From Chloroflexota bacterium (GTDB taxonomy: Bacteria > Chloroflexota > Anaerolineae > UBA4142 > SHND01): 64,000 nt of DNA. Below the pieces are notes generated by a model that worked only from the letters and a program-made list of their open reading frames with translations, did no database searches and had not been told where the DNA came from. How positions within the stretch are numbered: position 1 is the first letter of the stretch; every line of letters starts with the position of its first letter. Of this stretch, positions 979-4,693 are shown piece after piece. A program made the position numbers and the translations under genes. The stretch spans positions 1 to 64,000 of the forward strand of contig JACQWQ010000066.1 in the NCBI GenBank assembly GCA_016209205.1. Reading direction: 5' to 3'.

Positions 979-1051
979 CCGCTTGTCGGCGTTGCACGCA
1001 CACACACGCGCACAAGGCGCTATGCTACACAGGCGGAGAAGGAAAAGGTGA

Positions 1052-4000
1052 ATGGATAATCTGAATGCGCTGAAAATTTTGCTGCTGGCATCCGAAGTTT
1101 CACCGTTCGTCAAAACGGGCGGCATCGCGGATGTCGTCAGCGAGTTGGCGCGCGCGCTCAAAAGTTTGGGCCATGACGTACGCGTCGCGCTGCCGCGCTA
1201 TCGCGTGATTCGCGTGAATGGCGCGCAGCAGGTTGTGGACGCATTTCCGGTTCACCTCGACGGGTTGACAGAGAACGTCAGCATTTTGCAGGGTGCGCTC
1301 GGCGACGTGCCCGTTTATTTTATCGAGAACGCGCGCCTCTTTGACCGCGATGGGATTTACATGTATCCCGACGACGCGGAGCGCTTTTTGATTTTTTCGC
1401 GCGCGGCATTGGAAATGCTGCCGCATCTGCAATGGCAGCCCGATATTATTCACGTCAACGATTGGCAGACCGCGTTGATCCCGAATTGGCTCAAGACGTT
1501 GTATGCCAATAACCCGTTCTTTGAAAACATCGCGTCGGTGTACACGATTCACAATCTCGCTTATTTCGGCGCCTTTGGACAGCGCATCCTCGAGATCGCG
1601 GGACTGGCGCAATTCGGTTTCATTGCGCATCCCGGCGTGTCCAACGAAATCAATCGCGAATTGAATTTTATGGCGCGCGGCATTTTGTTCGCGGACGCGA
1701 TGAATACCGTGAGTCCGACCTACGCGCAAGAAATTCAAGCGCCGGAATTTGGCGAAGGGCTGGATCCGGTTTTGCGAATGCGCGCCGCGCGCCTGCGCGG
1801 AATTCTGAATGGGATTGATTATGCGGAAGCGAACCCGGCGCAAGATGCCGCGCTGGCGAGCCGGTACGACGTTGAGCATCTCGAGGCCCGTGCGTCCAAC
1901 AAACGCGCGCTGCAAAAGCAAGCAGCGTTGGACGACTCTGACGCGCCGCTGTTTGCCATCATTTCGCGTTTGAACGACAACAAGGGGTTGGATTTGGTGA
2001 TACAAGTCATCGAACCGGTGTTGGCGTCGGGCGCGCAATTGGTCGTCATGGGCGCGGGGGAGGAAAAGTATCACACCGCGCTCAAGGCGCTCGAAACGAA
2101 ATTCCCGCGCCGCGCGCGCTTTTTCCAAACGTTCGATCAGGCGCTGCGCCATCAAATCGTCGCGGGCGCGGATATTTTGCTCATGCCGTCGCGCGTCGAG
2201 CCGGGCGGAACCACACAGCTGTTGGCGATGCACTATGGCTGTGTGCCCATTGTGCGGCGCGTTGGCGGACTGGCGGATTCGGTCGAGGACTATGACCCGC
2301 GCGCGCGATCCGGCGCCGGGTTTGTCTTTGACCGCGCGGACTTGCTCAGTTTGTACGGCGCAATCGTCCGCGCGCAGGAAACCTACGCGCGTCCGCACGA
2401 ATGGCGCGCCTTGCAGGAACATGGAATGCGCGCGGATTTGACGTGGAGCCATTCGGCGCTCGAATATGTGGCGATGTACGAATTCGCCCGCCGCGAAAAA
2501 GCGCAAGTGGTGGAACGCGAAGCCGCGCTGCAGCGTGAAATCGAACGCACCGCGAAAATCATGCGCGAGTTACCGCCGCGCATTCGCGAACTGGGCGATT
2601 TAGTTTATAACTTGTGGTGGAGTTGGAATCCCGAGGCGACAAATCTGCTGGAACGAATTGATGACGCGTTGTGGCAAGCGACCGGACACAACCCGATCAA
2701 ACTTGTACGCGCGGTTTCGCCGGAGCGTTTGAACGATTTGGCGGCGAATGCGGATTTTCTCGCACAGTACGATCGCGTCATCCGCGCGTTGGACGAATAT
2801 ATGCGCGGCGAAGGCACATGGTTTGAGGCGACTTATCCGTACGCCGCCGACCATTCCATCGCGTATTTTTCCGCCGAGTTCGGCATTCACGAATCGCTGC
2901 CGATTTATTCGGGTGGTCTCGGTATTCTGTCGGGGGATCATGTCAAGGAAGCGAGCGACATGGGCATTCCGCTCATCGGCATCGGCTTTTTGTATCCGCA
3001 GGGCTATTTTCGTCAGGAAATTGACGCGCAGGGCAATCAGCTCGCGCGCTACGACAAACTCGATTTTTCTCAGGCGCCCGCGCTCGCGGCTCAAGACAAG
3101 AACGGAAATGAGGTCATTGTCAGCGTAGACTTGCCGGGCCGGACAGTGTATGCCAAAGTGTGGCTGATTCAGGTCGGGCGCGTTTCGTTGTATTTGATGG
3201 ATACGGACATCGAGCGCAACGCGCAAAATGATCGCGTGCTGGCAGCGCGTTTGTACGGCGGCGATCACGAATTTCGCATCATGCAAGAAATCGTGTTGGG
3301 CATCGGCGGCGTGCGCGTCTTGCGCGCGTTGGGTTTGACGCCTACCGCGTTTCACATGAACGAAGGGCATTCCGCATTTCTCACGCTCGAACTGACGCGC
3401 GAGCTGGTCGCGCAAGGCATGTCATTCGACGACGCGAAGAAAACGGTTGCGGCGCATTCCATCTTTACGACGCATACGCCGGTGCCGGCGGGCAACGACG
3501 CGTTCGGCGCGGATCTGATTGACAAGTACTTGTACGCGTTCTATCCGCAATTGGGATTGTCGCGCGAACAATTCTTGGCGCTCGCCGACGATCATGGGTT
3601 GTTTAGCATGACGGTGCTGGGCTTGCGTTTTTCCGATCAGCGCAACGGCGTGAGCAAATTGCACGGCGAGGTTTCGCGCAAAATGTGGACGCACGTTTTC
3701 AAAACCTCCGAACCGGAGACGCCGATTGGTCACATCACCAATGGTGTGCACACCGCCAGTTGGATCGCGCCCGAACGTTCCAAGTTCTACGGCGAAGTAT
3801 TGGGCAGCGATTGGTATGCGCGCCTGGACGACCTGAAATTTTGGGAAGGGTTCAAGAATGCGCCGAACGCGCGTGTGTGGGAAATTCAAAACGCGCGTAA
3901 ACGTGCGCTGGTCGAATTTACGCGCGCGGTCTGGTCGAACCAATTGAAACGGCTCGGTGCGAACGATGCCGCCATCGCACGCGCACAGCAGGTTCTCGAC

Positions 4001-4693
4001 CCGCACGTGTTGACGATTGGCTTTGCGCGGCGTTTTGCCACCTACAAGCGCGCGACGCTTTTCTTGCACAATCCTGCGCGGCTCAAGCGAATTCTTAACC
4101 ATCGCGAGCGCCCCGTCCAAATCGTTTTTTCCGGCAAAGCGCATCCCGCCGACATTCCGGGGCAATCGTTCATTCGTTCGGTGTATCAAGCCGCGCTGGA
4201 CCATGAACTCGAAGGCAAAATTGTTTTTATCGAGGATTATGATATTGACGCCGCGCGCATGTTGGTGCAGGGGGTGGATGTGTGGCTCAACAACCCGCGC
4301 CGTCCGTTGGAAGCGAGCGGCACGAGCGGGGAAAAAGCCGCCTTGAACGGCGTACTAAATTTCAGCGTCCTCGACGGTTGGTGGGCAGAAGGATACAATG
4401 GCAAGAACGGCTGGGCCATCGGCGATCCAACCAAGCAGTACACGAGCGAAGCCGATCAAGATAGCGACGACGCGCATTCGCTCTATGACGTCTTGGAGAA
4501 TCAAATTGCGCCGCTGTATTATGAACGCGGCGCGGACGGACTGCCGCACGCGTGGTTGGAATTCAGCAAGGCGAGTATTATGACGCTCGCGCCGATGTAT
4601 TCCATGCGCCGCATGTTAAAAGAATATTGCCAGTACTATGTCAAAGCCATCACGGCGGAACAAACGAATAAATTCGTTACTACGCTAACGTAG
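1052..4693 (+). CDS. Fused glycogen synthase (GT5) and alpha-glucan phosphorylase (GT35)
   Basis: One uninterrupted 1213-residue frame joins two enzymes of opposite direction in glycogen metabolism. Residues 1 to about 480 are a GlgA-type starch/glycogen synthase: KTGGIADVVSE near the N terminus (ADP-glucose site), THNLAYFGAFG, VSPTYAQEI, LNGID, ISRLNDNKGLDLV and the retaining-GT motif PSRVEPGGTTQL, where the usual FEPCG Cys is Gly. A short charged linker (about 480-510) leads to a short-form bacterial phosphorylase starting PPRIRELGDLVYNLWWSWNPEA. It carries HMNEGHSAF, THTPVPAGND, the region ITNGVHTASW, and the pyridoxal-phosphate lysine in EASGTSGEKAALNG. A purine-rich site (GGAGAAGGAAAAGG) precedes the ATG. 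The last residues (NKFVTTLT) are encoded by a dispersed intergenic repeat. Both halves look intact by motif; the fusion itself is directly visible. Confidence 0.93.
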   Translation: MDNLNALKILLLASEVSPFVKTGGIADVVSELARALKSLGHDVRVALPRYRVIRVNGAQQVVDAFPVHLDGLTENVSILQGALGDVPVYFIENARLFDRDGIYMYPDDAERFLIFSRAALEMLPHLQWQPDIIHVNDWQTALIPNWLKTLYANNPFFENIASVYTIHNLAYFGAFGQRILEIAGLAQFGFIAHPGVSNEINRELNFMARGILFADAMNTVSPTYAQEIQAPEFGEGLDPVLRMRAARLRGILNGIDYAEANPAQDAALASRYDVEHLEARASNKRALQKQAALDDSDAPLFAIISRLNDNKGLDLVIQVIEPVLASGAQLVVMGAGEEKYHTALKALETKFPRRARFFQTFDQALRHQIVAGADILLMPSRVEPGGTTQLLAMHYGCVPIVRRVGGLADSVEDYDPRARSGAGFVFDRADLLSLYGAIVRAQETYARPHEWRALQEHGMRADLTWSHSALEYVAMYEFARREKAQVVEREAALQREIERTAKIMRELPPRIRELGDLVYNLWWSWNPEATNLLERIDDALWQATGHNPIKLVRAVSPERLNDLAANADFLAQYDRVIRALDEYMRGEGTWFEATYPYAADHSIAYFSAEFGIHESLPIYSGGLGILSGDHVKEASDMGIPLIGIGFLYPQGYFRQEIDAQGNQLARYDKLDFSQAPALAAQDKNGNEVIVSVDLPGRTVYAKVWLIQVGRVSLYLMDTDIERNAQNDRVLAARLYGGDHEFRIMQEIVLGIGGVRVLRALGLTPTAFHMNEGHSAFLTLELTRELVAQGMSFDDAKKTVAAHSIFTTHTPVPAGNDAFGADLIDKYLYAFYPQLGLSREQFLALADDHGLFSMTVLGLRFSDQRNGVSKLHGEVSRKMWTHVFKTSEPETPIGHITNGVHTASWIAPERSKFYGEVLGSDWYARLDDLKFWEGFKNAPNARVWEIQNARKRALVEFTRAVWSNQLKRLGANDAAIARAQQVLDPHVLTIGFARRFATYKRATLFLHNPARLKRILNHRERPVQIVFSGKAHPADIPGQSFIRSVYQAALDHELEGKIVFIEDYDIDAARMLVQGVDVWLNNPRRPLEASGTSGEKAALNGVLNFSVLDGWWAEGYNGKNGWAIGDPTKQYTSEADQDSDDAHSLYDVLENQIAPLYYERGADGLPHAWLEFSKASIMTLAPMYSMRRMLKEYCQYYVKAITAEQTNKFVTTLT

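Follow-up and report, generated by a model that had tools for sequence, protein, structure and literature searches.

A single gene in the window, a stretch of 64,000 nucleotides from a Chloroflexota bacterium of the class Anaerolineae (contig JACQWQ010000066.1, positions 1 to 64,000), encodes a GT5 glycogen synthase (GlgA) and a GT35 α-glucan phosphorylase (GlgP) in one polypeptide, and both halves are probably active in what would be a bifunctional α-1,4-glucan synthase-phosphorylase. This reading, drawn from sequence comparison and predicted structure, is preferred because the two enzymes form one chain with complete domains and conserved catalytic residues, because the fusions belong to one lineage, and because a bridge predicted to be helical keeps the halves at a fixed spacing. 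Glycogen synthesis and breakdown are normally carried out by separate enzymes, which are counter-regulated against futile cycling.

Domain Organization of the Fusion

The gene occupies positions 1052–4693 of the forward strand as a single uninterrupted, ATG-started open reading frame (ORF) of 1213 amino acids (aa). This agrees with an earlier note on this DNA, which had read a synthase and a phosphorylase in one continuous frame. Both halves exceed the cutoffs of their NCBIfam models: TIGR02095 (glgA) matches aa 8–477 over the full domain (529 bits against a cutoff of 328), and TIGR02094 (α-glucan phosphorylase) matches aa 603–1196 (828 bits against 192). Pfam identifies Glyco_transf_5, DUF3417 and Phosphorylase; DUF3417 is the usual N-terminal domain of the TIGR02094-type phosphorylase subfamily, and with it the phosphorylase part spans aa 507–1196. 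The features of the gene are as follows:

1035–1042, forward strand: Shine-Dalgarno-like GGAGAAGG, about 9 nt 5′ of the fusion ATG (sequence reading)
1052–2482, forward strand: GT5 glycogen synthase (GlgA) half, aa 1–477 (TIGR02095; residues mapped on E. coli GlgA)
2483–2572, forward strand: bridge of 30 residues, aa 478–507 (alignment of 19 fusions and AlphaFold2)
2570–2899, forward strand: DUF3417 (PF11897), aa 507–616 (Pfam, 126.7 bits)
2858–4639, forward strand: GT35 α-glucan phosphorylase catalytic half, aa 603–1196 (TIGR02094; residue conservation)

Third-position GC content is alike on either side of the GlgA/GlgP junction. A search of the whole source genome (6.38 Mb, 94% complete) for the separate glgA or glgP that the earlier note had proposed to look for returned no second member of GT5 or GT35; the one other match was weak and GT4-like.

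Conservation of Both Active Sites

Alignment to E. coli GlgA places the catalytic residues of the synthase half at E15, K21, D27, D137, H167, N253, R306, K311 and E383. At the positions equivalent to E. coli E9, K15, D21, D137, H161, N246, R300, K305 and E377, none of the 18 aligned fusions has a substitution where sequenced. Among sites that are at least 97% invariant in unfused relatives, 53 of 56 in GlgA and 124 of 132 in GlgP persist in 90% or more of the fusions. The phosphorylase half retains the pyridoxal 5′-phosphate (PLP) lysine K1095, within EASGTSGEKAALNG, along with E1087, R993/R994, K999, H773 and H808 in 18/18 fusions. In Foldseek, the GlgA half matches 1rzu with a target-normalized template modeling (TM) score of 0.90, and the phosphorylase half matches the Segatella copri glycogen phosphorylase 9l6i with a score of 0.77, likewise target-normalized. 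The glutamate of GTSGEKAALNG was considered as an unusual feature of the PLP motif and dismissed; it is ordinary in the subfamily, and PDB 9l6i has the same residue.

Both halves are under similar purifying selection. The ratio of nonsynonymous to synonymous substitution rates (dN/dS) is about 0.11–0.19 in both for the pairs listed, and pN/pS within the genus is 0.26 for the GlgA half and 0.24 for the GlgP half.

The GT5 loop EPCGLxQ bears the catalytic glutamate together with contacts to the distal phosphate of the donor, as known from E. coli GlgA structures. In the window this loop reads EPGGTTQ (aa 383–389) in place of the standard EPCGLTQ, so that the EPCGL donor-phosphate motif is absent, with the glutamate retained and the cysteine and leucine substituted. 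The earlier note had described the key motifs of both halves as kept, which holds for the PLP lysine; its “VEPGG” is this variant of EPCGL. Most fusions carry EP[S/G/A]G[T/S/F/A]. The cysteine is kept in 47/50 unfused GlgAs and is S, G or A in 16/18 fusions (Fisher p ~1e-10, uncorrected for relatedness), and the leucine (L381) is T, S, F or A in all 18 fusions and substituted in few unfused GlgAs. The altered residues presumably touch the phosphate and not the base. We file the GlgA half as a variant member of TIGR02095, in which EPCGL is usual and not required, a few unfused members varying as well.

Distribution in Anaerolineae

Among the Anaerolineae genomes sampled, 19 carry the fusion: every one of the six genomes of the genus (here f1), 11 others from the order, and two from another family of the class. 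The relatives in which the earlier note had proposed to look for it thus have it, with full-length fusions at 73–79% identity to the window in the five other congeneric species. Elsewhere in the order eight fusions are full length, that of G010 lacks the last ~40 residues, and those of G012 and G015 are cut by contig ends; in the other family the G030 fusion is full and that of G065 is cut at its start. No fusion was found in the order genomes G013 and G014 (88% and 69% complete, respectively), and no re-split gene was seen among the 19 fusion genomes. A search of 396 genomes of the class gave no further fusion among the matches listed, each of which covered one half only; one missed there is unlikely because it would outscore the single halves listed. 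None was found in 301 genomes of the phylum either, where the strong matches listed outside the Anaerolineae fusion group were phosphorylase only.

The earlier note had named two findings that would refute its reading, a missing stop or an assembly join near 2500–2600 and a failure to find the fusion in any relative. In a translated search, neighboring glgA and glgP genes in one frame can look like a fusion, and a Cupriavidus oxalaticus plasmid match covering 98% of the query proved to be just that, two adjacent same-frame ORFs with a stop between them. However, the 19 fusions come from many separate assemblies and share identical spacing, which excludes a lost stop or false join here, and an artefact of assembly or annotation can for practical purposes be dismissed. 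Another candidate, a 1133-aa open frame around GlgP in G477, was rejected, because the additional sequence, upstream, is an open frame of low complexity and no synthase. On a Baikal Chloroflexota contig (L031:9986-13287), a glgP frame is immediately preceded by a 231-aa glgA remnant without its N-terminal part, and the two may be a neighbor pair in decay.

A Bridge of Constant Length

From the end of the GlgA domain (aa 477) to the LP of DUF3417 (aa 508), the spacing is 32 residues in 19/19 fusions, with no indel and no proline. Identity of the bridge to the window is 23–33% in the fusions of f13 and of f2, another family of the same order, compared with 54–58% over the domains. The bridge thus seems to be constrained in length and not in sequence, and constant spacing despite sequence drift suggests that geometry is under selection. 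AlphaFold2, run with a 38-row alignment (mean predicted local distance difference test score, pLDDT, 88.8; predicted TM score 0.73), predicts one helix at aa 465–505, in which the last GlgA helix is extended into the phosphorylase. An internal restart at the in-frame ATG of codon M504 was considered and rejected: the genus keeps this codon but most other fusions have a different one, and no Shine-Dalgarno sequence precedes it, making a separately translated phosphorylase unlikely.

Origin and Genomic Context

Quick maximum-likelihood trees, one for each half, both recover the fusions as a single clade, with Shimodaira–Hasegawa-like approximate likelihood ratio test (SH-aLRT) support of 68 for GlgA and 93 for GlgP. 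A single origin is therefore favored, though not strongly shown by the GlgA tree alone. Within the taxonomic order, most fusion loci are flanked by genes for HAD phosphatase, DTD, FmdB, a response regulator and KsgA; in G036 the unfused glgA likewise has this HAD gene on one side and DTD-FmdB-KsgA on the other. This synteny indicates that the fusion probably arose at the old glgA locus, with glgP moving in beside glgA and the two genes then being joined in an ancestor of the fusion lineage.

In the window, the gene immediately 5′ of the fusion, at 223–978 on the forward strand, encodes a HAD-family phosphatase-like protein (Pfam PF00702; synteny). It is found near most fusions and also upstream of the unfused glgA in G036 and G034, and a sugar phosphate is a plausible substrate. 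Long antisense ORFs opposite the fusion, at 1100–2506 and 3422–4204 on the reverse strand, are most likely codon-bias shadows.

Nucleotide-Sugar Supply and Branching

GlgC was sought in 19 genomes that have the fusion or pieces of it (G000–G012, G015–G019 and G030; G016 has fragments only, and G065 was left out) and was not found in ten, one of which, G001, is 79% complete. In the nine fusion genomes with GlgC, it adjoins a different glucosyltransferase wherever contigs permit the check. Its partner is a ~590-aa transferase lacking Pfam matches in G002, G003, G004, G008, G018 and G030; in G000 and G005 this transferase lies at the end of another contig, and in G009 a second, divergent glgA (~43% identity) adjoins glgC (L135; G009:C73:44545-47106). 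Unfused synthases differ along similar lines: GlgC occurs in 2/11 genomes carrying the closest unfused GlgA type, whereas 9/9 with other GlgA types have it, often as a neighbor (Fisher p = 0.0003, uncorrected for relatedness).

A GalU-like UDP-glucose pyrophosphorylase occurs in 12/14 f2 genomes, including most of those lacking GlgC, with matches below the curated cutoff; none was found at E <= 1e-60 in the six f1 genomes. With the GlgC pair described below in 5/6 f1 genomes, nucleotide-glucose supply appears near-complementary within one order. These distributions suggest, without proving it, that the fused synthase does without GlgC and that, in f2 if not elsewhere, UDP-glucose may be its donor. 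Sucrose synthase was considered as a source of ADP-glucose and rejected, with none found at E <= 1e-30. Nearly all fusion-group genomes also encode a ~840-aa nucleotidyltransferase-like protein that could make ADP-glucose.

The ~590-aa protein is GT-B-like, has no Pfam or NCBIfam match, carries the motif SIYEPFGIxQLEPL, and stands with a pair of GlgC paralogues (G000 C108:6610-9824 and C242:14236-16002, L134 and L195; also L137, L219 and L221). In some genomes the cluster also holds a phosphoglucomutase-like gene and a ~1165-aa GH13-like protein. Profile comparison of the transferase with GlgA aligned only the EPxG region, with a probability of 7%, and its AlphaFold model (pLDDT 46) was discarded. 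The cluster may be a glucan route of its own in these Anaerolineae, dependent on ADP-glucose.

The fusion genomes depart from the classical GlgC-GlgA-GlgB-GlgP pathway: GlgC is absent, or stands beside another transferase where contigs permit the check, and no GlgB above threshold was found in G000, the genome of the window. With neither a GlgB nor a GH57 match in that genome, the product may be a linear glucan or may be branched by an unrecognized enzyme, for example the ~1165-aa GH13-like protein of the GlgC cluster.

Comparison With Known Systems

The synthase half shares its fold (target TM 0.88–0.90), catalytic residues and full domain with the GT5 enzymes of E. coli (2qzs) and A. tumefaciens (1rzu). 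In contrast to these, it is joined at its C-terminus, has EPGGTTQ (mostly EP[S/A]G in other fusions) instead of EPCGLTQ, and is often encoded in a genome without GlgC. The phosphorylase half is 40% identical to S. copri 9l6i, a TIGR02094 GT35 enzyme with DUF3417 and the PLP motif EASGTSGEKA, but it starts as a continuation of the GlgA helix and ends near aa 1200–1213, ~150 aa shorter at the C-terminus.

The nearest described case that was found is the GlgA-GlgB fusion of Waddliaceae and Criblamydiaceae, where a glycogen synthase is also N-terminal to another glycogen enzyme; there the branching-enzyme half is reported to be inactive (PMC7935935), whereas the partner here is a phosphorylase with intact residues. 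Fusions of TreS with Mak and of GlgB with MalQ also join bacterial α-glucan enzymes, but in consecutive or cooperating steps and not in opposing elongation and phosphorolysis; the parts consulted of the 2024 review that covers them do not mention a GlgA-GlgP fusion (PMC11046441). The same two functions are encoded side by side as adjacent glgA-glgP genes on Cupriavidus, Enterococcus and Leuconostoc plasmids, and in Bacteroides a glycogen/starch synthase gene lies beside a phosphorylase gene, but in each case as two polypeptides. Searches of the openly licensed PMC full texts yielded no paper describing a GT5-GT35 fusion. What is new is the conserved architecture, which joins two known families.

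Proposed Function and Alternatives

If both halves are active, the N-terminal half would use a nucleotide sugar to extend an α-glucan by glucose units at its non-reducing ends, and the C-terminal, PLP-dependent half would release glucose-1-phosphate from ends of this kind. The bridge would hold the two modules 1:1 on the same glucan, and elongation and phosphorolysis would draw on one pool of non-reducing ends. With both running, the net reaction would be nucleoside diphosphate (NDP)-glucose + inorganic phosphate (Pi) → NDP + glucose-1-phosphate, with the glucan as intermediate and the direction set by the levels of Pi, glucose-1-phosphate and NDP-glucose. As no other GT5 or GT35 enzyme was found in the fusion genomes (except the second GlgA of G009), the fusion would set glucan turnover and could act as a buffer between nucleotide-glucose and glucose-1-phosphate. 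We infer, as the earlier note had proposed, that both active sites may work at one glucan end or that the protein may run a controlled futile cycle.

Several observations weigh against a bifunctional enzyme working in this way. Support for a single origin is modest in the GlgA tree, classical ADP-glucose supply is missing in the ten fusion genomes without GlgC, neither GlgB (TIGR01515, E <= 1e-40) nor a GH57 enzyme was found in G000, and the loss of the donor-loop cysteine and leucine could mean altered synthase activity or an altered donor. The last point bears on whether one half has gone catalytically silent, as the earlier note had allowed, and now serves to bind glucan or to regulate; the branching half of the Waddliaceae fusion, reported to be inactive (PMC7935935), sets a precedent. 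This is improbable, given that the catalytic residues checked are kept in both halves of all fusions, that most of the near-invariant sites persist (53/56 and 124/132), that dN/dS is equally low in both halves, and that a second copy was not found in most fusion genomes. It is somewhat less improbable, though still rather unlikely, that the fusion has no special mechanism and reflects co-expression after loss of an intergenic stop, fixed by drift. Its one apparent origin in one lineage and the frequency of glgA-glgP neighbors would fit such a history, but exact spacing over a drifting bridge and the lack of any re-split gene among the 19 fusion genomes would not.

A change of donor is a more serious possibility, if somewhat short of an even chance, and is compatible with the bifunctional reading, of which it is a variant. 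The synthase half would use UDP-glucose or another nucleotide sugar, leaving GlgC-made ADP-glucose to a different transferase. In support, 10/19 fusion genomes lack GlgC, as do 9/11 genomes carrying the closest unfused type, while 9/9 with other types have it; where GlgC co-occurs with the fusion it stands beside another transferase wherever this can be checked. The GalU-like protein of 12/14 f2 genomes, the failure to find sucrose synthase and a donor-phosphate loop altered specifically in fusions also favor this. However, the genus of the window has GlgC and no GalU-like match at the threshold above, the GalU matches fall under the curated cutoff, and the ~840-aa protein could supply ADP-glucose. 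The altered residues, moreover, are those that we presume to contact the phosphate and not the base. A fuller scheme, which we regard as unlikely, is GlgC-independent glucan cycling, in which the fused synthase would draw on UDP-glucose or a different NDP-glucose, while the phosphorylase tethered to it would free glucose-1-phosphate from the same chain ends. If true, these bacteria would have a tunable buffer or phosphorolytic shunt through a short, nearby α-glucan instead of a storage pathway.

Significance

Returning to the bifunctional enzyme, the fusion lineage appears to have physically coupled the building and the breaking of a glucan in a protein whose halves both look active, an arrangement for which no description was found. 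With two active sites in one chain at fixed spacing, often in genomes without GlgC, the fusion would offer a direct test of whether coupling opposing polymer reactions can be useful. The lineage may also serve as a test case for the donor used by such a synthase.

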